Shown here: positions 43,658 through 57,073 of the stretch, in pieces | Numbering within the stretch: position 1 is the stretch's first letter | Layout: the number at the start of each line of letters is the position of its first letter | Assembly (NCBI GenBank): GCA_022340615.1 | Contig: JAJDNO010000024.1 | Coordinates: 1 to 64,000, forward strand | Length of the DNA stretch: 64,000 nt | Reading direction: 5' to 3' | From: Gallionella sp. | GTDB lineage: Bacteria; Pseudomonadota; Gammaproteobacteria; Burkholderiales; Gallionellaceae | Notes under the pieces: generated by a model | Told to the model about the DNA's origin: nothing | Databases searched by the model: none | The model's input: only the letters and a program-made list of their open reading frames with translations | Program-made: the position numbers and the translations under genes

Positions 43658-44287
43658 TCAGTGGTACAGCGCCGGAAATCTTTCGCGCAAATGCTCCAGC
43701 TTGGGCAGGTCGTTGAAAACGATATAGGGCTGGAGCGGGTGCAACGCCAGATAATTCTGGTGATGCGCCTCGGCCGGGTAGAACTGCTTCAGCGGCACGA
43801 CCTGCGTGACGATGGGGTCTGAAAACGTGTGTGCGGCGGTGAGCTGCCGGATATAGTCCTGCGCGGTCTTGCGCTGTTTGTCGCTGGTATAGAAGACCAC
43901 CGAGCGATACTGGCTGCCGGTATCCGGTCCCTGGCGATTCAGCTGGGTCGGATCATGAGCCACGTTGAAAAATACCTGCAGCAGTTGCTGATAAGTAACC
44001 TGCGCCGGATTGAAATGAACGCGCACCGATTCGGCGTGGCCGGTGTTGCCCTGGCTCACCATCTCGTAATGCGCCGTATCAGCGGCACCCCCCGAATAGC
44101 CCGACACCACGTCGGTCACGCCCTTGACGTGCTTGAATACCGCATCCACTCCCCAGAAGCATCCCCCGGCGAATACCGCCGTTTCCTGAAGCGGTGCGGA
44201 GGCCGCGTTTGACAGCGGGACCATACCGAGAGCGACGCACAGGCCGGCGCTGAAAAAATAACGACGGATAATATTGATACTTAGCAT
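43658..44287 (-). CDS. msrA: Peptide-methionine (S)-S-oxide reductase MsrA, exported
   Basis: Signal peptide; AVFAGGCFWGVDAVFKHVKGVTDVVSGYSGG. Confidence 0.95.
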   Translation of the reverse strand: MLSINIIRRYFFSAGLCVALGMVPLSNAASAPLQETAVFAGGCFWGVDAVFKHVKGVTDVVSGYSGGAADTAHYEMVSQGNTGHAESVRVHFNPAQVTYQQLLQVFFNVAHDPTQLNRQGPDTGSQYRSVVFYTSDKQRKTAQDYIRQLTAAHTFSDPIVTQVVPLKQFYPAEAHHQNYLALHPLQPYIVFNDLPKLEHLRERFPALYH

Positions 44288-44305
44288 GATGACACTCCTT
44301 TAGAA

Positions 44306-46021
44306 TCAGCCGAAAGTAAACGCAAATGCATGGACACCGGGATCGAGAAACTCGATGCGAAAGGTGTGGACCCCGATCTTCCCGCGTTGCCGCACAAGCT
44401 GGTATAGCCTCTGCTCGCGAACCATGCCGTTGCCACGGGCATCGGTATCTGTCCCGTGGTTCGCACCGGGAGCCACACCGTCCAGCGTGACCCTGAAACG
44501 CACCGGTTTGCCGCCCGGCGAGCCCAGCACCAGATGCAGATCGCGGCCGCGGAAACGGTAACTGATCGAGCCGCCGGAAGTATGCAACACGCAGGATTCG
44601 CCTCCAACCAGCCATTCCCCGGCCAGAGCCCAATGATCCGCTTCAAGCTTGCGCGGCGCGCTGTAATTTGCCGCCCTGTCCTTGCTGACCGGCTCGGGCG
44701 AAGACAGATTCTGCTGGCGCGCATAGCCCAGGTAGGTTTCCGGCGAACGCGCACCGGCGGATGCCGCCTCCGTCGCGCCCGATCCCGCAACGTGCACCAG
44801 GCCGCCGGCCAGCACAATTTTGTCCTGATGCGCCTCCTCGAGCAGGGAGCGTATCATCCGCTCGGTTTCGTCATACGCGCCTTCGCCGAAGTGGTGTTCG
44901 CGGATCCGACCATTCGCATCTATCAGATAATGGGCGGGCCAGTACTGGTTGTTGTATGCATTCCAGACCGCATACCGGTTATCCATCACGACCGGATATT
45001 TGATGCCCAGATCGCTGATCGCCTGCCCGACATTGCGCGGATCCTTCTCGAACGCGAACTCAGGCGTGTGCACCCCGATGATGACCAGCCCCTGGTCGCG
45101 ATACTTCCGGTCCCAGGCTTTCAGATAGGGCAAGGTACGCAGGCAATTGATGCAGGAATAGGTCCAGAAATCCACCAGCACCACTTTGCCGCGCAGCGAC
45201 CCGCTGGCAAGCGGCGGAGAGTTGAACCACTTTGTCGCACCATCGAAAGATGGCATCAGCGGCAGACTGGCTTCAGCGGGCGTGGCGGATTGACGGACAG
45301 CGGCCGGCTTCGCCAGTTGCGCGATCAGCTTCTGTTCGGTCCCGGCCGTGTTCAAAAAGTCGAATTGCGCCAGGAAACGCGTATCCCAGCCCAGCGCAAT
45401 CGCGACCACTCCGGCCAGCACCGCGACGCCCAGTCCGCGCCGCAGCCATTCTTCCGCACCCAGCCCCCGCTTCATCAGGCTGAACACGCGTCCGCCGGCC
45501 AGCAGCGCCAGCGCCAGCGAAGATGCCGCGCCGGCCGCAAACACCAGCAGCAGCAACGCGCTGTGCAGATTCGCGCCGTTCAGCGCAGCGCCGGCCAGCA
45601 CCAGCCCGAGAATGGGTCCGGCGCAGGGTGCCCACAGGAACCCGACCGCGACGCCCAGCAGCAGCGAGCCCCTGATGCTGGATTCCCGGTCGGCGCGCTG
45701 TTGCAATCGGCCGCCGAACGCGACGAACGGGCGCATCATCCGATCCGCCAACGCCGGGAACACCAGCGCCAGCCCCATCAGCAATAGAAGCAGCATCGCC
45801 GCATAGCGGCCGTACTGGTTCAATGCAACCAGCCATGCACCTCCGACTGCCGCTAGGCTGGCCAGCACCGTGAAGGTCGCGGCCATGCCGATCAGGATCG
45901 GCAAACCGGAACGCCGGAACGACCTGTCCGAACGGGCAAAGATGAAAGGCAACACCGGCAGCACGCACGGGCTGAAAATGGTCAGCACGCCGCCGAGATA
46001 GGCCAGCACAAAGATCAGCAT
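44306..46021 (-). CDS. DipZ-like fusion: CcdA/DsbD membrane domain + thioredoxin-like domain + C-terminal beta domain
   Basis: FSPCVLPVLPFIFARS...GFLWAPCAGPILGLVLAGA; redoxin region VVLVDFWTYSCINCLRTLPYLKAWD (CxxC); DipZ C-terminal YLGYARQQNLSSPEP...ALAGEWLVGGE. Confidence 0.93.
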   Translation of the reverse strand: MLIFVLAYLGGVLTIFSPCVLPVLPFIFARSDRSFRRSGLPILIGMAATFTVLASLAAVGGAWLVALNQYGRYAAMLLLLLMGLALVFPALADRMMRPFVAFGGRLQQRADRESSIRGSLLLGVAVGFLWAPCAGPILGLVLAGAALNGANLHSALLLLVFAAGAASSLALALLAGGRVFSLMKRGLGAEEWLRRGLGVAVLAGVVAIALGWDTRFLAQFDFLNTAGTEQKLIAQLAKPAAVRQSATPAEASLPLMPSFDGATKWFNSPPLASGSLRGKVVLVDFWTYSCINCLRTLPYLKAWDRKYRDQGLVIIGVHTPEFAFEKDPRNVGQAISDLGIKYPVVMDNRYAVWNAYNNQYWPAHYLIDANGRIREHHFGEGAYDETERMIRSLLEEAHQDKIVLAGGLVHVAGSGATEAASAGARSPETYLGYARQQNLSSPEPVSKDRAANYSAPRKLEADHWALAGEWLVGGESCVLHTSGGSISYRFRGRDLHLVLGSPGGKPVRFRVTLDGVAPGANHGTDTDARGNGMVREQRLYQLVRQRGKIGVHTFRIEFLDPGVHAFAFTFG

Positions 46022-46027
46022 GATGGA

Positions 46028-46573
46028 TCAGGCATGCTTTGGTTTTGGTACGAAACGCAACGCAACGGTATTCATGCAATAGCGCAATCCGGTCGGTTGC
46101 GGTCCGTCGTTAAATACATGGCCAAGATGCGCATCGCACAGGGTGCAGCGCACCTCGGTGCGCGTCATCCCGAACATGTGGTCTGTGATCTCGCGCACGT
46201 TTTGCGGAGCGATCGGTTGCCAGAAACTCGGCCAGCCGGTCCCGGAATCGTATTTGGTCGCCGCATCGAACAGCGCGTTGTCGCAACACACGCAGCGGTA
46301 CAGGCCGGGCTCATGCCGGTCGTAGCCCGGCTGTGAAAATGCCCGTTCGGTGCCCTGCTCGCGCGTCACTTCGTAGGCCAGCGGCGACAGCCGCTTTTTC
46401 CATTCTGCATCCTTGTTCACGCGCGCAAGAGTTGCTAGTCCCAGAGGTTTTCCGTCATCGGAAAATTGCATGATGGTCACCATGCCGCCGGCTGGAAGCT
46501 GATCGGCAAAGGAACGTGTCGCCATGGCCAGGGTAAGTCCTGACAAGGTGTATAAAAAATGTCTGCGCTGCAT
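46028..46573 (-). CDS. msrB: Peptide-methionine (R)-S-oxide reductase MsrB, exported
   Basis: N-terminal export signal MQRRHFLYTLSGLTLAMATRSFA; YRCVCCDNALFDAATKYDSGTGWPSFWQPI, CTLCDAHLGHVFNDGPQPTGLRYCMNTVALRF. Confidence 0.95.
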   Translation of the reverse strand: MQRRHFLYTLSGLTLAMATRSFADQLPAGGMVTIMQFSDDGKPLGLATLARVNKDAEWKKRLSPLAYEVTREQGTERAFSQPGYDRHEPGLYRCVCCDNALFDAATKYDSGTGWPSFWQPIAPQNVREITDHMFGMTRTEVRCTLCDAHLGHVFNDGPQPTGLRYCMNTVALRFVPKPKHA

Positions 46574-46670
46574 GTCTGTTTCCTCCTGGATCATCTTCGA
46601 CTGTCGGATTCGATATCGGGTTCAAGGCAATTATCAAAACCAGTTATGATTCGCCCTGCATGCCGGGTAA

Positions 46671-46696
46671 TTCGGGCGGCGCACTGAAAAGGTTAC
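46671..46696 (-). promoter_or_regulatory. Predicted ECF-sigma promoter of msrB-dipZ-msrA (GTAACC-N16-CGAA)
   Basis: Minus strand GATGTAACCTTTTCAGTGCGCCGCCCGAATTAC; same block upstream of the DUF2282 operon at 56707-56732. Confidence 0.75.
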
Positions 46697-46709
46697 ATCA
46701 AAGGTTCGC

Positions 46710-47249
46710 GTGACTGACAAAACTGACCATCTTGAAGCGTTGATGCGGCAAGCCCTAGGCGGGGACCAGCGTGCTTACGCGAAAGTACTGCAGGAAACCT
46801 CGCGATTCCTCAGGCCGTACCTGGCGAAGCGGCTCAGCTTTACCAACGAAACGGACGACCTGCTGCAGGAAATCCTGCTGTCCATCCACAAGGCACGTCA
46901 CACCTATGACGGCAACCGGCCCTACAAGCCGTGGGTGTATTCAATCGCAAAATTCCGGCTGCAGGATTATCTGCGCTCGCATTATGCCGACAAGTTGCAT
47001 CATGCGGATGATATTTCCGGGCTGGAAGATTTTTTGCATGAAAATGTAACCGAATCTGTCATTTCATACGAATCCATCAGTGGGGAAATCGGAAAACTCC
47101 CGCAGAAGCAGGCGACCATACTGCAATTGATGCATCAGGAGGGCTATACCGCGAAGGAAGTGGCGGAGAAACTGGGCATGAACGAATCTGCGGTCAAGGT
47201 CGCGGCCCACCGCGCCTACCGGATATTGCGGCAAAAACTGGACAAATAA
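46710..47249 (+). CDS. ECF RNA polymerase sigma factor (SigF/NrsF-partner type)
   Basis: Region 2: FTNETDDLLQEILLSIHKARHTYDGNRPYKPWVYSIAKFRLQDYLR; region 4: EGYTAKEVAEKLGMNESAVKVAAHRAYRILRQKL; GTG start; overlaps the next gene by 1 nt. Confidence 0.93.
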   Translation: MTDKTDHLEALMRQALGGDQRAYAKVLQETSRFLRPYLAKRLSFTNETDDLLQEILLSIHKARHTYDGNRPYKPWVYSIAKFRLQDYLRSHYADKLHHADDISGLEDFLHENVTESVISYESISGEIGKLPQKQATILQLMHQEGYTAKEVAEKLGMNESAVKVAAHRAYRILRQKLDK

Positions 47250-47884
47250 TGGGAAATATCAATGAACTGATCAACCGTCTGGCGCACGACAATATGACAG
47301 TGAAGCCTGCGCCCCATCCTTACAAGCTGAGCCTGAAATGGATGGGGTGGGCTGTTGCCTATCTTGTCGTCGCGCTGGCATTTTCCGGGGTGCGCCCGGA
47401 CCTGCCGGCCAAACTCCACCAGCCCATGTTCGTCGCTGAACTCGCTGCACTGGCCGGCATCTTCATCACGACATCCCTGAGCGCGTCATTGCTGTCGTTT
47501 CCGGATATACACCAGCTGCGCCGGCTGGCATTCGCGCCGCTGATCGCTTTCGCGCTGTTTTTGCTGGTGATGTTCCTCGCATGGCAGGCAGACAACCCCC
47601 CGGCGCCGCTGCCGGTGCACAGTTTTCAATGCACCCTGGGCATAACCATGATGTCGTTCCTGCCGGCCGCCTGGATATTCTATGTGATGCGCAAATTTGC
47701 CAGCACCCACTATCATCTGGCCGGCTGCTGCGCGCTGCTCTTCGCGTTCAGTATCGGCGCGATATGGCTGAGGCTATACGAGGTGAACAACTCGATCATG
47801 CATGTGATCGAATGGCATTACCTGCCGATGATCGCGTTCGGCATCATCGGGCTGTGGCTGGGGAAAAACATTCTGAAGTGGTAA
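47249..47884 (+). CDS. NrsF-type (DUF1109) membrane anti-sigma factor
   Basis: Six hydrophobic helices, PHPYKLSLKWMGWAVAYLVVALAFSGVRPDL..., EVNNSIMHVIEWHYLPMIAFGIIGLWLGK; immediately follows the ECF gene. Confidence 0.85.
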   Translation: MGNINELINRLAHDNMTVKPAPHPYKLSLKWMGWAVAYLVVALAFSGVRPDLPAKLHQPMFVAELAALAGIFITTSLSASLLSFPDIHQLRRLAFAPLIAFALFLLVMFLAWQADNPPAPLPVHSFQCTLGITMMSFLPAAWIFYVMRKFASTHYHLAGCCALLFAFSIGAIWLRLYEVNNSIMHVIEWHYLPMIAFGIIGLWLGKNILKW

Positions 47885-47928: not shown

Positions 47929-49440
47929 TCAGATATCGAGGAAGCGGACCTGGTTGCGCCCGCTTTCCTTGGCCTCGTACATCACCTTGTCGGCCCGCTT
48001 CAGCAGGTCGGCTGGCCGGTATTCGTGATCGATGAACATTACTACACCGATGCTAGAGCTGCAGTGATATTCGATTATTTTTTCGGTATCGCCCTCCTGT
48101 TGCAGCACCAGCCTGTAGGGTCTGGCGAGGATGGCACGGATCTTTTCGGCAACCACCCCGGTCTGGGCAATCGAGGATTGCTTGTCGGTGTCCAGTTCGG
48201 TCAGCATCACCACGAATTCATCGCCGCCGAATCGCGAAACAGTATCCACTTCGCGGACGCAACTGATGATGCGGTGCGCAACTTCCTTCAATAGCAGGTC
48301 GCCCGCACTGTGCCCGTACTGGTCATTCAGCGGCTTGAAATTGTCCATATCCAGGAACATCAGCGCGGCATAGCGGCCGGAGCGGTTGCTGGCCGCCATT
48401 GCCTGGTTCAGGCGATCGTCGAACATGCGGCGGTTGGGCAGCTTGGTCAAGGCGTCGTAAAAGGCCAGGTTGCGGATCTGGTCCTCGGCCTTGATGCGTT
48501 CGGTGATGTCGCGCGACACAACGACGACGCGGGACGGTCGCCCCATGCTGTTCCTGATCACGCCGCCGCATGATTCCATGTAGCGGATGCTGCCATCTGG
48601 CATCGAGAAACGGTATTCGATGCGCAGTCCGATGCCGGTCCTTACGGTCTCCATGAACACCCGCCTCACATGTTCGCGGTCATCGGGATGTATCTCTGCA
48701 AACGAATCGGTGCCCTTCAGGGATTCGGGGTCGCCGAACAAGCGCGTGTAGGAGGGACTGTTGTAGAGCCGTCGCCCGTCCAAATCGAGCACCGCGATGA
48801 AATCATCGACGTTCTCGGTGATCATGCGATAGAACGCTTCCTGTTCGCGCAACTCATCCTCGAACCGCTTGTTTTCGGAAATGTCGGTCATCACCACGCG
48901 CACCACCGTCGATTTGCCGTCCTTCTGCAGGCGCAGGCTGTCCAGCCTGACCTGGCAGCAAGTCTTGTCTTCGTGCACGATAGCCAATTCGCAGGTCAGC
49001 TTGTCTTCCTGCTGCAGCAAGTCGATGAAATATTCTGTCCAGTCCTTGATATCTTCAGCGGCAACGAAGGCATCAAAGCGCTTGTGCAGCAGCTTACCGC
49101 GTTCATCCCCCAGCAGGGTCGCGCCGGTCAGGTTGATTTCCTCTATCCGGGCATCGCTGCTTAGCGTGACATAGCCGACTGGCGCGAGATCGTAGAAGTC
49201 GGTGTACCGGTCGCGCAATTCCTTCATCATCAGCTGCGCGCGCTGCAACTCCTGGCGCTGCATCCCAAGTTCGACCTGGCACACCTGCAGTTCATGGAAT
49301 ATTTCTTCGACGGGACGGGACGGCCTATCCGCAGGTGCCATCTGCGCCAGATGCTTTTCAGCGGCAGCTCGCAAACCCTCGGCGAACTGTGCCTCCGAAT
49401 CTGTTTTCGGCAAATCGGGCCTTGCTGATCTATTGCCCAT
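47929..49440 (-). CDS. PAS/PAC sensor diguanylate cyclase
   Basis: Two PAS regions, GGDEF domain with intact RFGGDEFVVML; start at MGNRSARPDLPK inferred. Confidence 0.9.
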   Translation of the reverse strand: MGNRSARPDLPKTDSEAQFAEGLRAAAEKHLAQMAPADRPSRPVEEIFHELQVCQVELGMQRQELQRAQLMMKELRDRYTDFYDLAPVGYVTLSSDARIEEINLTGATLLGDERGKLLHKRFDAFVAAEDIKDWTEYFIDLLQQEDKLTCELAIVHEDKTCCQVRLDSLRLQKDGKSTVVRVVMTDISENKRFEDELREQEAFYRMITENVDDFIAVLDLDGRRLYNSPSYTRLFGDPESLKGTDSFAEIHPDDREHVRRVFMETVRTGIGLRIEYRFSMPDGSIRYMESCGGVIRNSMGRPSRVVVVSRDITERIKAEDQIRNLAFYDALTKLPNRRMFDDRLNQAMAASNRSGRYAALMFLDMDNFKPLNDQYGHSAGDLLLKEVAHRIISCVREVDTVSRFGGDEFVVMLTELDTDKQSSIAQTGVVAEKIRAILARPYRLVLQQEGDTEKIIEYHCSSSIGVVMFIDHEYRPADLLKRADKVMYEAKESGRNQVRFLDI

Positions 49441-49788
49441 AACTTCCCCCTTTGCAACTGTGTCAAGTATCGCATATCGCGCCGGTTCCGCAATATATTT
49501 CAGGCTGTTGCCCGTCACGCCGAATTCGGCTTTGGCGGCTCTCATGCTACAATTGCACACGATTTTCATGCATAACAATTGCCCCCGGCCGGCTGTTCCC
49601 GGTCCCGGCCTGTCGATTCCGGCTGATCAGGCAGGATGATCGACCCGGCAATTCTGGTTAATACTTTTCGCGTGCCTGGACACGCAAAATCGACTCGGGG
49701 CATTCCTGATCCGGTTTGAAAGGTCTACACGAAATCGTGCGGGCCTTTTTCTTTTTCACGATCCGGTTGCACCGGCGAAAGCAGCACT

Positions 49789-51450
49789 ATGAATAATGTC
49801 AGCGAAGCAGCAAACACAAGTATCCCATCGGCCAGTTCCGATGCAACCGCGCGCGCCGGCGATATCGAGCGGGAAGTAAAGCGGCGCCGCACTTTCGCGA
49901 TCATTTCCCACCCTGACGCGGGCAAGACCACGCTCACCGAAAAACTGCTGCTGTTCGGCGGCGCGATCCAGATGGCCGGCACTGTAAAGGCGCGCAAGAG
50001 CGGCCGGCATGCGACTTCCGACTGGCTGGATATCGAAAAGCAGCGCGGCATCTCGGTGGCCAGCTCGGTGATGCAGTTTGCCTACGACGACTGCGTGATC
50101 AATCTGCTCGATACGCCCGGCCACCAGGATTTCTCCGAGGACACCTATCGCGTGCTGACCGCGGTTGATGCGGCGGTGATGGTTGTGGACGCGGCCAAGG
50201 GCGTGGAAGCGCAGACCATCAAGTTGCTGGAAGTGTGCCGCTTGCGCAACACGCCGATCATCACGTTCATCAACAAGATGGACCGGGAGGTGCGCGATCC
50301 GCTGGAAGTGCTGGATGAGATCGAATCGGTGCTGAAGATAAAATGTGCGCCGGTAACCTGGCCGATCGGCATAGGCAAGCGCTTTCAGGGTGTGTATCAC
50401 CTGCTCAACGACGAAGTGCTGCGCTTCGTGCCGGGCGAAGCCAAGGCCGGGCAGGAAGTCGAAACCCTGCGCGGCGATCAGATCGAGCAACTGGCAAAAC
50501 AATGTCCTGCCGAAATGCAGACCATGCGCGACGAAACCGAACTGATCATGGGTGCAGGCGCGCCGTTCGATCTGCAGGAATTTCTCGGCGGACAGCAGTC
50601 GCCGGTGTTCTTCGGCTCCGGCGTGAACAACTTCGGCGTGCGCGAAATCCTGCGCGCGCTGGTAGATTGGGCGCCCTCGCCTTTGCCGCGCGAGACCGAC
50701 GTGCGCGTGGTCCATCCGACAGAACCTGCGTTCACCGGCTTCGTGTTCAAGATCCAGGCCAACATGGACCCGAACCACCGCGACCGTATCGCGTTTCTGC
50801 GCATCTGCTCCGGCAAGTACACACCGGGTATGAAGGTAAAACATCGCCGCACCGGCAAGGAGATGAAGCTGGCCAACGCGGTAACCTTCATGGCAAACGA
50901 GCGTACCCGCATGGAAGAGGCTTACGCCGGAGACATCATCGGCGTGCACAACCACGGCCAGCTGCAGATCGGCGACGTGCTCACCGAAGGCGAGGCGCTC
51001 ACCTTCAAGGGCATCCCCTACTTCGCGCCGGAGCTGTTCAGCCGCGCACGGCTGCGCGACCCGATGAAAGCCAAGCAATTGCAAAAGGGACTGCGCCAGC
51101 TGGGCGAAGAAGGCGCGGTGCAGGTGTTCGAACCGCTGCAGGATTCCAATCCGCTGATCGGCGCGGTAGGCCAATTGCAATTCGAAGTGGTCGAGCACCG
51201 GCTGAAATCCGAATACGGCGTGGATGCGGTATTCGAACGCGCAGGCATCCATACCGCACGCTGGGTGACCTGCGCGGACAAGAATCATCTCGGCGAATTC
51301 GTGAAGGCCAATCAGGCTCGTCTGGCCAGAGACGTGGATGGCAACTATGCCTATCTTGCCGATACCGGCGTGAACCTGCGCCTGGCACAGGAGCGCTGGC
51401 CGAAAATCCAGTTCCATGCGACGCGCGAGCATGGCCAGCAATTGAACTGA
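49789..51450 (+). CDS. prfC: Peptide chain release factor 3
   Basis: [62 protein letters not shown]. Confidence 0.97.
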
Positions 51451-51467
51451 TCGATCGGCGGCTCCGC

Positions 51468-53717
51468 TCAGAATTTCGCGCGATAGTAGGCGAGAAAATC
51501 ATCTGCCGGCAACGGACGGCTGAATAAATATCCCTGTATTTCGTCGCAGCCCAGGGTTTTCAGCAGTTCGAGCTGCGCATCTGTTTCCACCCCTTCTGCA
51601 ACAGTGCTCAGGTCCAGTGCTTTTGCCATCGCAACGATGGTTTTCGCAATCGCAACATCATCGATATTCCCGGGCATGTCCTTGATGAAAGCCCGATCGA
51701 TCTTCACAGAGTCGATCGGGAAACGCTTGAGATGGGCAAGAGAGGAGTGGCCGGTGCCAAAATCGTCTAGCGACAGGTGAACACCCCGGCTGCGTATCCT
51801 GTCCAGCAGATCGATCACCCGTTCCGGGTCTTCCATCACCATGCTTTCGGTAATTTCCAGCTCCAGCGAGCTTGCCGGAAGTCCTGATTCGGCAAGCGCC
51901 TCATCGATTTCCGCCGGGAGGTTGTCTGAACGGAACTGCCTTGCGGACAGATTGACCGCCACCCGGATCGGTTGCAACCCGGCCTTCTGCCAGGCTGCAT
52001 TTTGCCGGCAGGCCTCGCGCAGCACCCAGCGGCCGATCGCGACGATCATCCCTGTATCTTCTGCAACGGGAATGAATTCGGCCGGAGAAATCATGCCCCA
52101 CTCGCGATGCATCCAGCGCACCAGCGCTTCCATGCCGACCAGGCGTCCGCTCGCGGTATCCACCTTGGGCTGGTAATGCAATAGCAGTTCCTGATTTTCC
52201 ACCGCGTGCTGCAAATCGGTGATCATGCGCAGGGTGTTCGCGGCGGCGCGCCCCATCGCTTCGTCATAGACCGCAAAATCGTTGCCTCCGGCGCGGCGCA
52301 CCCGGTTGCAGGCGGAAGCGGCCTGCTGTACCTGAGCCTCAGCCATGATTGCCGGATCGCTGCCTGCAGCGCTTTTCATCAGCGCAGCCCCGATCGACAG
52401 CGTAGAAAACAGTTCGCGTCGCTCGACATGCAGCGGCCGCCTTGCGGTGCCGAGCAACTGCACGGCGCGCCGTTGAGCGCCGGCCAGATCTCCTGGCCAG
52501 CATACCAGCACGAACGCATTCCCGCCAAAACGATATAGCGTCTCTTCGTTTTCGTTGATTCCATCGCGCAGTCGCAGCGCAACCTTGACCAGCCAGCGCT
52601 CGGTTTCAACCGCACCCAGGCTTTCGAAGATTTCCTGTTCGCGGTCGGCAACGATCATCATCACCGTGCCCGCGCGCTGTTGTTCGACCGCCTTGCCCAG
52701 ATCTTCACGCAGACGGTACTGGTTGGGCAGCCCGGTGGCGGGATCGAAGAACGCCTGATAGGCGAGATTTTCCTCTGCCTCCCTGCGCGCTGTGACGTCC
52801 TTGATGTAGACATGGAATTCGGAAAAGTCCGCAAGGTAGGCCACGGTACATTCCAGCGTGAGCTTGCCGAGCGTGTATTCGAATTGCCGGTTGGAAGCCT
52901 GGTTCAAACGGGCTTCATCCAGATGGTGTTGCATCTCTTCAGGCAGCAGTTTTCCGGAGTCATTCGGAGGTAGATTCAGCCTGGCGAGCAATTCGGCGGT
53001 CGCCGGGTTCGCATAGCTCACCTCTCCCGTTGTGCCGAGGCGCAGTACCGGATTCGGGTTGCGCTCGGCAAACATCGCCAGCCTGCGGCGCTCCATTCCC
53101 TCGCGGATGATCGCGACGACATAGTAGCCCACGAAAAAGGCAACACCGAAAATCAATACCGAAAAGCCGATGACCCAGCGCACCATGGTCGAGACACTGC
53201 TGCGCGAGTCGTTACCCAACATGTCGACCGCGCGCTGGTTGGCCGCCGACATCGCGGCCAGGGTGCTTTCAATCTGCCTGACCTTGGGTTTAACCTGCGC
53301 CAGGATCGCCCGGGCCAGATCCCAGTTCACGACCTTGCTGGAAAGCGTTTTCGATAATTCGTCGGACAATTCGTCCAGCGCGATGAGCCGGGTGCGCAAT
53401 TCCCTCACCTGCTCTCGCGAATCCACGTCCTTTTCCAGCTGGTCGACGATGGCGTCAAGTCGCGCGCGGTTCAGCGCGCGCTGGGTCTGGAATGCGTCCC
53501 GGGTTGCGGTGTAGGAATAATATTCGTAAAGCAGGCGTTCCTCGTCGGCGATGACACCGCGCAACTCGCCGATGCGCTGCGACAATGGCAGCTTCTCTGC
53601 GATGAACATCCGGTTCACCGCCTGCACCGAGTCCCCCAGCGTGATGATGCGAACCGACACCGCAACACCCACCGCGAGCACAAGCAGAAACACCCACCAT
53701 ATCCTGCGCTGAAGCAT
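51468..53717 (-). CDS. Membrane sensor protein with degenerate GGDEF and intact EAL domain
   Basis: N-terminal TM and four-helix sensor; GGDEF position reads RFGGNAFVLVC; EALVRWMHREWGMISP, ITESMVMEDPERVIDLLDRIRSRGVHLSLDDFGTGHSSLAHLKRFPIDSVKIDRAF. Confidence 0.92.
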   Translation of the reverse strand: MLQRRIWWVFLLVLAVGVAVSVRIITLGDSVQAVNRMFIAEKLPLSQRIGELRGVIADEERLLYEYYSYTATRDAFQTQRALNRARLDAIVDQLEKDVDSREQVRELRTRLIALDELSDELSKTLSSKVVNWDLARAILAQVKPKVRQIESTLAAMSAANQRAVDMLGNDSRSSVSTMVRWVIGFSVLIFGVAFFVGYYVVAIIREGMERRRLAMFAERNPNPVLRLGTTGEVSYANPATAELLARLNLPPNDSGKLLPEEMQHHLDEARLNQASNRQFEYTLGKLTLECTVAYLADFSEFHVYIKDVTARREAEENLAYQAFFDPATGLPNQYRLREDLGKAVEQQRAGTVMMIVADREQEIFESLGAVETERWLVKVALRLRDGINENEETLYRFGGNAFVLVCWPGDLAGAQRRAVQLLGTARRPLHVERRELFSTLSIGAALMKSAAGSDPAIMAEAQVQQAASACNRVRRAGGNDFAVYDEAMGRAAANTLRMITDLQHAVENQELLLHYQPKVDTASGRLVGMEALVRWMHREWGMISPAEFIPVAEDTGMIVAIGRWVLREACRQNAAWQKAGLQPIRVAVNLSARQFRSDNLPAEIDEALAESGLPASSLELEITESMVMEDPERVIDLLDRIRSRGVHLSLDDFGTGHSSLAHLKRFPIDSVKIDRAFIKDMPGNIDDVAIAKTIVAMAKALDLSTVAEGVETDAQLELLKTLGCDEIQGYLFSRPLPADDFLAYYRAKF

Positions 53718-53794: not shown

Positions 53795-54088
53795 TCACAT
53801 CTTCTTGGCGGGTACGGGCATTTCCTTTCCAGGTTGAAGGCTGCCCCCTACTTTCAGGCAGGTTCCCGCCGGAACGGGGATGAAATCATTGGGGTCGTTG
53901 TCGACTTTCGAATGGCCGGCGCAGGAGTGCATCTTGGGATTGCTGTTGCACGCATTCTGTCCCGCCTTGGCGATGCCGAAGCACTTTTCCTGATCGGCAG
54001 CAGCATGGGCGGAATTTGCTGCTGCACTGAGGCCGAGCGCGAGCAGACTGGTCAGTGCGGTGGCGGCTAGTGAATTTTGGTATTTCAT
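53795..54088 (-). CDS. DUF2282 (BufA1-type bufferin) precursor, second copy
   Basis: Signal peptide ...[68 protein letters not shown], four Cys. Confidence 0.9.
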
Positions 54089-54198: not shown

Positions 54199-54654
54199 CT
54201 ATGCCGGTTTGCGCAGCCATCTTTCCAGCAACGCGTCGATCGACCACCGGCCGCGGCTCAGTACCAGCAGCACGCCCAGCAGTATCCCCCAGGACAGATG
54301 CTGGTTCAGCCCCGCCTCGCTCAGGTCGGCATAGGAAATCACCGCCACGATATTGAGGATGAACAGCCCGGAAGCGGCAAAGCGGCCTAACAGCCCCAGC
54401 ACCAGCAGAACCGACAAACCGAGCTCTGCGCTGGCCGCCATGGTAGCCGCCACATCGGGAGGCAACAACGGCACGTGGTAGACGTCATTGAACAGGTACA
54501 GCGTGCTGTCCCAGCTCAGTATCTTGGTATAGCCCGATTTGAAAAACACGTTGGCAAGATACAACCGCAAGCCCAGATCCATCAGGGGCGCCAGATATTC
54601 GGGCAGGTGCGATGCGGAATAATAAAAACGGATGATGCGCTTCAACTGATTCAT
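54199..54654 (-). CDS. DoxX-family membrane protein of bufferin operon
   Basis: [78 protein letters not shown] overlap with the upstream gene. Confidence 0.9.
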
Positions 54655-55433
54655 GCTTCCTCCTTCAATTTGAAACCGCACAGCACGCCTTGCCCGACCA
54701 GCTTCAGCAATACAGCCTGCAGATCGAAACCCGGGTCGATTTCCAGTGCCGCAGCGGTTGCGTCGCCGAGCGTAGCCCCCGCCCGGATGGCCTGCAGCCA
54801 GTTTGAATCTGCCGGCGACAGTTCTTCGACGATGACCGCACCGTCATTCCGGCAGACCAGCGCATTGCTTGCACCGCTATCCGGATCGATTGTGAAATCA
54901 GGATCCGCGCCGGGCTGATGCGCGCGCCAGATCGCGACGACCGGGTATCGCGAACATACCTGGTGGCAGGACGGATGGATGCGCAGAATCAGTTGCGGAT
55001 ATTGTTCGGGCGGTATCTGTGCCAGCTCCGCGAGGTCCAGCGCGGTGGAATCCCCGGCAAAATAGGCGCGGTGACAGGCCCAGTCCAGCGCCGCCACATC
55101 GGGCAGGTAGGGCAGCCCCTGCGCTGGTTCGAACGAAACGAGAAAATCTGCGAGCTCCGCGCCGTAGCGGTGAAGGTTGCCGCTGCGCGACGGATATTGC
55201 TCGATGAATTTCCTGGCCATGTAACGGAAGAATTCATCGCCGACGAGTTGTTTGATCAGCGGATAGGCGCCCGCCAGCGTGTCGTGCAGGTTGCCGCGGT
55301 AATTATTGCGATAGATCTCGAGGGCGGTGGCAGCAGAATAATGCGGATAGATATTGTCGATTTCCACCGGCGCCTCATCGCCGTGCACGATCGCCTGCGC
55401 AAACCCGGACAACACCTCATTCAGCGCAGGCAT
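54651..55433 (-). CDS. DUF2063 (HvfC/BufC-type) MNIO partner protein
   Basis: GFAQAIVHGDEAPVEIDNIYPHYSAATALEIYRNNYRGNLHDTLAGAYPLIKQLVGDEFFRYMARKFIEQYPSRSGNLHRYGAELADFL. Confidence 0.9.
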   Translation of the reverse strand: MPALNEVLSGFAQAIVHGDEAPVEIDNIYPHYSAATALEIYRNNYRGNLHDTLAGAYPLIKQLVGDEFFRYMARKFIEQYPSRSGNLHRYGAELADFLVSFEPAQGLPYLPDVAALDWACHRAYFAGDSTALDLAELAQIPPEQYPQLILRIHPSCHQVCSRYPVVAIWRAHQPGADPDFTIDPDSGASNALVCRNDGAVIVEELSPADSNWLQAIRAGATLGDATAAALEIDPGFDLQAVLLKLVGQGVLCGFKLKEEA

Positions 55434-56277
55434 GGCATTCCTCCAGTCGCTGCCGGGCCTTCGCGGCTTCGCCCATCAAGACCGGCAACGCCGGTATGTC
55501 GCTGTCCCATTCGATCAGCGTGGGTCGCGGGCCGAGGTGCTGCAGCGCGACCTCGTACAGCTGCCAGACCTCCGGGTGGACCGGATGGTCGTGCGTATCG
55601 ACCAGGCAACCGTCCCGGGTACTGAAACCGGCCAAGTGATATTCTCCGACCGCTTCTGCAGGAAGTTTCGCAATGAAAGCGCCGGCATCCACGCCGAGAT
55701 TGCGCGCATTCACGTACAGGTTCTCCACGTCGAACAGGATGCCGCAGCCGGTGCGCCGCACCAGTTCGGCGAGGAATTCGCCTTCACTCATTTCGCTTTG
55801 TGCAAACGACAGATAGCTGGAAAGATTTTCCACAAGCAGCCGGCGACCGAGCCGTTCCTGCACCTGCTGCACGCGGTCTGCCACATTCGACAGCGATGCC
55901 TGCGTATAGGGAAACGGCAGCAGGTCATTGACCACCATCCGGCTGCCGTTGCCATCTTCAAGCGCGGTATTCCAGCACAGATGTTCCGATACCGCGGCAG
56001 GCTCAATCGCATCGCACAAGCGGCGCAAGTCGGACAGATGATCCCGATCCAGCGGAACGGCCGATGCCAGCCCCATGCCCACTCCGTGCAGGCTGACGGG
56101 ATAATGTTCGCGCACCTTGTTCAGGGTGCGCAACGGTGCACCGCCGCCAAAAAAATTCTCGCTGTGCACTTCAACCCAGCCCAGCTCGGGTAAAGTATTC
56201 AGTACCTCGGCGTAATGAGGCGCCCGCAAGCCTATGCCTGCGATGCTCGGCAATGTATGGTTTGCGGGCGTTTTCAT
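55417..56277 (-). CDS. DUF692 multinuclear non-heme iron-dependent oxidase (MNIO; BufB-type)
   Basis: GIGLRAPHYAEVLNTLPELGWVEVHSENFFGGGAPLRTLNKVREHYPVSLHGVGMGLAS...LLVENLSSYL...GILFDVENLYVNARNLG...EYHLAGFS...LVDTHDHPVHPEVW. Confidence 0.94.
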   Translation of the reverse strand: MKTPANHTLPSIAGIGLRAPHYAEVLNTLPELGWVEVHSENFFGGGAPLRTLNKVREHYPVSLHGVGMGLASAVPLDRDHLSDLRRLCDAIEPAAVSEHLCWNTALEDGNGSRMVVNDLLPFPYTQASLSNVADRVQQVQERLGRRLLVENLSSYLSFAQSEMSEGEFLAELVRRTGCGILFDVENLYVNARNLGVDAGAFIAKLPAEAVGEYHLAGFSTRDGCLVDTHDHPVHPEVWQLYEVALQHLGPRPTLIEWDSDIPALPVLMGEAAKARQRLEECHACAE

Positions 56278-56561
56278 TACATTTTCTTCATCGTGTCGCT
56301 GCCCATCAGATGACCACCGGCGATCTTCGCGCATGTGCCCTTGGGCACGGCGACAAAATCCTTTGGATCATTGTTCTTGGTGGCCTGGCCGGCACAGGAA
56401 TGCGCGCTCTTGTTGCTGGAGCAATCATTCATGCCCGCCTTGGCAATGCCAAAGCATTTTTCCATTTGCGGCTTTTTATCGGCTGCATTTGCATTAACGC
56501 TGGACAGTCCCAGCACCAGCAACGTGCCCATTGCAGCGGAAATAATCTGACTGTTTTTCAT
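56277..56561 (-). CDS. DUF2282 (BufA1-type bufferin) precursor, operon head
   Basis: Signal peptide ...[64 protein letters not shown], four Cys; TAATG overlap with DUF692. Confidence 0.93.
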
Positions 56562-56706
56562 GGTAATACCCCTTTCATTGATTTATTAACGAGAGCCTGA
56601 TGCCGGCCATGGGCCGCAGCAAGCCAAATTTCCCTGCATAAAAATGCACAGATTCAATTTCACCGGACTTGATTACTTCGCGGCCTTGCATCCACGCACC
56701 GATGTA

Positions 56707-56732
56707 TTCGTGCGAGTTTAATAAAAGGTTAC
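56707..56732 (-). promoter_or_regulatory. Predicted ECF-sigma promoter of the bufferin-like operon (GTAACC-N16-CGAA)
   Basis: Minus strand GATGTAACCTTTTATTAAACTCGCACGAATACAT; shares GATGTAACCTTTT and CGAAT at identical spacing with 46671-46696. Confidence 0.75.
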
Positions 56733-57073
56733 ATCGGGATTTTGGGTACCTGCGATCAATGACACACTATATAGCTTTGCCTGTCCAGAAGAGGGCCGGT
56801 AGACAATGCCGACTATTTGCCGGGAACTTGCATCGCCGGTCGAAAATGCGAAAGGCATGCATTGCCGCAACCCTTTGTTTTGTTGGTGGCCCTCACGCTA
56901 TCGAATATCCATCTACAACCAGCTTAGAATATACGATTAGAAATATGCGTCAAAACTCTATGCAATACTCCAAAGACCAATAAGTTGCAGTTTATTTTGG
57001 TCCAATGTCGAATTAACAAGAGGGTAAGAGCCCAGAATTGCAAATTAACAGATCCATTGGCTACTGCATTTAA

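Follow-up and report, generated by a model that had tools for sequence, protein, structure and literature searches.

A predicted promoter inside an ECF sigma factor gene points to feedback through its NrsF-type anti-sigma factor in Gallionella and related bacteria

Most descriptions of ECF sigma factors present them as self-amplifying. The locus analysed here lies in a 64,000-nucleotide stretch of Gallionella sp. DNA (hereafter the window) and raises the question of how such a factor is controlled when no copy of its promoter motif faces its own gene, and which functions it controls in turn. The sigma gene (46710..47249, + strand; GTG start, 179 amino acids) encodes the Pfam domains Sigma70_r2 and Sigma70_r4, and the nrsF-type anti-sigma gene (47249..47884, + strand; 211 amino acids) matches PF06532 (E=6.6e-41) over its full length (residues 11-211) with 140.8 bits against a curated cut-off of 26.8. 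Open reading frames and Pfam matches bear out what had been proposed from the sequence at the outset: both reading frames are real, they have a single base in common, and the pair diverges from msrB, from which the sigma gene is separated by a gap of 115 bases. A linked downstream DUF1109 anti-sigma gene, here in a 1-nt overlap, is a trait of group ECF16. No other NrsF gene was detected across the 2.27-Mb genome. Against the NCBIfam equivalog AntiSigF_NrsF (NF042994) the protein reaches 45.8 bits, below the cut-off of 300, and its profile scores thus place it inside the NrsF/DUF1109 family and outside the Caulobacter-type equivalog.

Two gene clusters in the neighbourhood come into consideration as targets. 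On the - strand msrB (46028..46594; PF01641, E=5.4e-49), a dipZ-like gene combining DsbD transmembrane, thioredoxin-like and Thioredoxin_10 domains (44306..46021) and msrA (43658..44287; PF01625, E=1.8e-59) are tightly packed; judged by sequence, both reductases have an apparent signal peptide. Together (43658-46594) they look like a periplasmic methionine-sulfoxide repair operon, for which the DsbD-thioredoxin fusion is likely to be the electron donor and whose promoter motif is common with that of the second cluster, a bufferin operon about 9 kb downstream of the sigma/nrsF pair (56561->53795). The latter comprises, all on the - strand, bufA1, a DUF2282 bufferin precursor (56277..56561; PF10048, E=3.7e-25), bufB, the MNIO bufferin maturase (55417..56277, its start taken at the ATG overlapping bufA1; NF050167, 358.9 bits, cut-off 310), bufC (DUF2063; 54651..55433; PF09836, E=4.2e-25), a DoxX-family membrane protein gene (54199..54681; PF07681), whose true start is probably the ATG at 54654, and bufA2, a second DUF2282 precursor (53795..54088; PF10048, E=1.2e-22). 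The combination that marks a bufferin (Buf1) cluster, a DUF2282 precursor with an MNIO BufB maturase, is therefore present (PF10048 twice, NF050167 once), and the maturation genes are bracketed by two precursors, the first and the last genes of the operon. The stretch between nrsF and the bufferin operon (47929-53717) is occupied by prfC flanked by two cyclic-di-GMP genes, PAS-GGDEF and GGDEF-EAL. The gene prfC is also found near nrsF in one relative (G025, locus L052); in three others (G036, G057 and G081; loci L037, L078 and L073) it lies on the side of msrA.

An exact search of the genome for TGTAACC-N14..18-CGAAT returned three sites, all in this neighbourhood, while the reversed control motif returned none. 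One copy with an N16 spacer (46670..46697, - strand) is a predicted divergent promoter reading into msrB, and another (56706..56733, - strand), also N16, is predicted to read into the bufferin operon, which carries its motif beyond the three intervening genes, as originally noted. The third, overlooked at that time, is a predicted promoter with an N17 spacer that lies within the sigma gene itself (47045..47073, + strand; codons 112-122) and reads into nrsF, whose ATG begins 176 nt past the end of the -10 element. These sites match the published ECF16 consensus tGTAACc-N16-CGAA (PMC3420878), two of them with N16 and one with N17, as well as the SigF motif GTAACC-N16-CGAA (PMC3511200). No exact copy faces the sigma gene from upstream, where the only copy (46697->46670) points to msrB. 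The original prediction that the sigma gene may escape autoregulation through this motif thus stands for the sigma gene, but does not extend to nrsF, which has an intragenic copy of its own. A search for a wider regulon through one- or two-mismatch matches proved too noisy (108 two-mismatch matches versus 69 for the reversed control), and a one-mismatch match just outside the window (G000:C7:65742), inside a methyl-accepting-chemotaxis-type gene, was set aside.

This arrangement is not peculiar to one genome. Sigma/nrsF pairs were gathered within the family, order, class and phylum of the window's genome, and 151 of them were scored for upstream-facing, divergent and internal motifs; after identical genes had been dropped, 142 distinct pairs remained, 75 in the clade of the window and 67 in a classical SigF-like clade. 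In the former an upstream sigma-facing motif, the autoregulatory promoter seen in the studied ECF16 members, is absent from every pair (0/75), whereas the intragenic motif is found in 71, always with N17 and at about codon 113, and a copy reading away from the sigma gene in 61. The classical pairs display the reverse picture, with a sigma-facing motif in 51 of 67 and an intragenic one in none. The clade of the window is supported by 100/100 in the sigma tree, where it forms a separate, long branch whose members are mostly 30-38% identical to the classical ones. It spans Gallionellaceae, Ferrovaceae, Sulfuricellaceae and other families, plus two genomes of other classes; among named relatives, the window's genome falls with Gallionella, Nitrotoga and other Gallionellaceae, Ferrovaceae and Sulfuricella being more distant. 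The intragenic state requires four changes on the tree, a number that a single gain and three losses would account for, and four of the 75 members are without the motif.

A motif within a coding sequence might simply mirror the protein. It could be a by-product of constraint on the linker between sigma regions 2 and 4 (N-V-T-E...S-Y-E) combined with codon bias, with no promoter function, and the peptide V-T-E-x-x-x-S-Y-E is indeed well conserved within the clade. Yet the third codon positions argue otherwise. Parsimony counts of third-base changes within the clade are 4, 2, 3, 3, 1 and 1 at codons 112, 113, 114, 115, 120 and 121, compared with a median of 19 across 174 codons of the gene. At codon 112 about 29 amino-acid changes have occurred, yet the third base is T in 71 of 75 sequences. 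Val113 is encoded almost exclusively by GTA in the clade, and by GTA in 54 of the 54 genomes of the first set that have Val, although GTA is a minority codon, used for about 18% of the Val residues in the remainder of these sigma genes, and Ser122 is never AGY, whereas Ser124 is. When the genes were redrawn with synonymous codons in 2000 trials, motif carriers numbered 4.3 on average and 12 at most, compared with the 71 observed. On these grounds an origin of the motif by chance or codon bias was rejected, and we hold the by-product explanation to be extremely improbable; the codon pattern indicates that the intragenic motif is under selection as DNA besides protein, both layers being selected. 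Codon 177, which adjoins the start of nrsF, likewise shows little third-base change, plausibly owing to an overlapping ribosome-binding site. A different possibility accepts a working intragenic promoter but has it also yield a truncated sigma region-4 fragment, translated from in-frame ATGs (M141, M157), that modulates the system. An ATG is present at codon 141 in 60 of 75 sequences and at codon 157 in all 75, but Met has a single codon, so that this conservation mirrors protein constraint only, and there is no consistent ribosome-binding site before M141. Inspection of ATGs and ribosome-binding sites in the 75 sequences gave no positive evidence for internal translation of such a fragment, which we regard as very unlikely.

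Instead, we strongly favour the view that the locus encodes an ECF16-type envelope-stress sigma/NrsF module with rewired autoregulation, in which the sigma factor would be constitutive and, when active, would transcribe its own inhibitor rather than itself. Since no motif faces the sigma gene and the intragenic one points toward nrsF, active sigma should transcribe nrsF and not its own gene, and a promoter that does not depend on this sigma factor, located between msrB and the sigma gene, should then provide a steady supply of the factor. The membrane protein NrsF would hold the sigma factor until an envelope oxidant or metal signal, perceived at the conserved side of NrsF (C128, H124, E178, H185, H190), releases it. 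Free sigma would switch on periplasmic methionine-sulfoxide repair, by MsrB/MsrA with DipZ as the source of reductant, together with the copper-buffering peptides, and would simultaneously transcribe only nrsF, from inside the sigma gene, closing a negative feedback loop. The expected output is a fast, self-limiting and graded response without a positive sigma loop. The intragenic promoter may be weak, as its spacer is one base longer than the N16 of the other two sites; nrsF is probably also co-transcribed with the sigma gene, and its ribosome-binding site in the window looks weak. As for the steady supply of sigma, a consensus sigma-70 scan of the + strand of the window gave nothing convincing as a sigma promoter and did not list the possible housekeeping promoter TTCAAG-18-TATGAT (46621..46650, + strand), a weak match that is the best in the window at 8/12. 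Of 61 relatives, 23 have its TATGAT element ahead of the sigma gene, compared with 5% in shuffled sequences and 0/61 on the other strand, which lends weak support to a housekeeping promoter at this position. If the sigma gene were transcribed from there, the msrB promoter would lie within the sigma leader, and we speculate that sigma-loaded polymerase might then also hinder transcription of the sigma gene.

Which operon is the main partner of the pair can be judged from its neighbours in related genomes. Among the 51 family loci whose upstream flank was long enough, msrB is divergently upstream of the sigma gene in 42 and dipZ is found upstream in 36, so that the commonest partner of this sigma/NrsF pair, as read from gene order, is periplasmic methionine-sulfoxide repair (msrB-dipZ-msrA). 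A bufferin operon lies within about 9 kb in 16 of these loci, in several layouts. Across the family its place relative to the sigma gene varies: it may precede the sigma gene in the same orientation, lie divergently beyond msrA, lie downstream, or be found on a different contig. An MNIO gene is present in 31 and absent in 27 of the 58 family genomes with NrsF, and 18 family genomes have an MNIO gene but no NrsF; several of these genomes are incomplete drafts, which affects such counts of presence and absence. The nearest relative (G025), in which prfC neighbours the pair as in the window, yielded no MNIO gene in a draft that is 83% complete. The original prediction had treated the bufferin operon as displaced from the pair by unrelated genes and had proposed a comparison of gene order in related genomes; that comparison, with the variable bufferin position and the missing MNIO genes, provides no evidence of an ancestral adjacent operon displaced in the window, and the idea was dropped. 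As a probable target the bufferin operon retains its standing through the shared motif, but not as the principal one. For the same reasons we find it improbable that the pair is a displaced regulator of the bufferin operon, that is, an ordinary heavy-metal SigF-NrsF system: the bufferin operon does bear the motif, and sigma/NrsF genes are often part of bufferin clusters (PMC12452194), but msrB is the commoner neighbour, the maturase gene is missing from nearly half of the NrsF genomes, the place of the operon varies, and this NrsF is without the second cysteine. Five relatives have sigma-nrsF downstream of bufABC-doxX and co-oriented with it; there the sigma gene would fall under the motif-bearing promoter of the bufferin operon, and a positive loop can exist. 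In two of these five, the sister sequences L039 and L067, with the sigma gene at the end of the bufferin operon, the intragenic motif has been lost, as a renewed rewiring of the circuit would predict.

The inhibitor itself departs from the classical type in its sensor residues. In an alignment of 142 NrsF proteins, numbered here after that of the window, the first conserved cysteine, C128, is kept in 75/75 members of the window's clade and in 66/67 classical ones. The position of the second cysteine, by contrast, is Glu (E178) in all 75, whereas in the classical clade it is Cys in 64/67 and His in 3/67, so that the two-cysteine signature of NrsF (C131/C181 in Caulobacter) is not found in the window. 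H124 (74/75), H185 (75/75) and H190 (75/75) are nearly invariant in the window's clade and largely missing from the classical one. A search for solved relatives of NrsF found none by sequence and none by fold (no match below E=0.3); the AlphaFold model, with a mean pLDDT of 72.6, is good for helix borders only. The model places all five residues within or close to the ends of helices 126-149, 155-177 and 183-207, adjoining loops 115-125 and 178-182, and hence probably on one membrane face. It is a reasonable guess that the Cys/His/Glu set constitutes a metal or metal-redox site. In Bradyrhizobium japonicum OsrA the second cysteine, C179, is needed for the peroxide response (PMC3420878). As this sensing cysteine is Glu in every member of the clade, heavy-metal sensing by analogy with Caulobacter NrsF, which had been assumed at the outset, appears doubtful. 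We put forward tentatively, with somewhat less than even confidence, a broader proposal: the clade evolved negative-only autoregulation via a promoter in the sigma coding sequence, and in its NrsF a Cys/His/Glu site took the place of the thiol pair, so that what is sensed would be a metal ion or a metal-bound redox state and not the oxidation of thiols.

Several features of the locus have counterparts in characterized systems. Caulobacter crescentus SigF-NrsF (PMC3511200) likewise pairs an ECF sigma factor with a downstream six-TM DUF1109 anti-sigma factor, recognizes GTAACC-N16-CGAA and controls a DUF2282/DUF692/DUF2063/DoxX operon. Yet in Caulobacter a sigma-facing promoter precedes sigF, where the window has instead the intragenic one toward nrsF; its NrsF has two cysteines (C131, C181), the second of which is Glu here; and its msrA genes lie outside the SigF regulon, while the window's msrB-dipZ-msrA bears the motif. 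Caulobacter sigF responds to sigma-F overexpression and is not strongly autoregulated under metal stress (PMC3511200). The ECF16 sigma/DUF1109 pairs EcfF-OsrA of B. japonicum (PMC3420878) and BcrS-AbcS of Brucella (PMC8315932) have regulons that include methionine sulfoxide reductases. Unlike the sigma gene of the window, EcfF and BcrS are autoregulated from an upstream consensus promoter, and OsrA C179 has no equivalent in the window's NrsF. In the studied ECF16 systems sigma and anti-sigma are read together from the upstream motif. With respect to bufferin clusters (PMC12452194), the bufA, bufB, bufC, DoxX order is shared and sigma/NrsF genes are frequent companions, although in the window these lie about 9 kb off beside msrB and the operon ends in a second DUF2282 precursor. 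The sole precedent for the wiring in the literature searched is SigH-RshA of Corynebacterium glutamicum (PMC3489674), where housekeeping promoters make sigma and anti-sigma and a SigH-dependent promoter, shown experimentally, drives rshA alone; that sigma/anti-sigma pair is actinobacterial and unrelated, its motif is different, and the start sites lie 62-66 nt before rshA. No intragenic ECF16 promoter was found in the literature searched, within which the wiring principle is known but its ECF16-type use, clade-wide and inside a coding sequence, appears to be new.

It seems that in a whole clade feedback has come to act on the inhibitor instead of the sigma gene, through a promoter that also codes for protein. 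Facing and intragenic promoters built on the same motif would offer a natural comparison of how the sign of feedback shapes a stress response, and the loss of the sensing cysteine in this clade is a caution against applying the model of heavy-metal or thiol sensing to every NrsF protein. The two genomes that belong to different classes within the phylum (L187 and L188) share this sigma/NrsF type, intragenic motif included, which suggests either an old origin or horizontal transfer.
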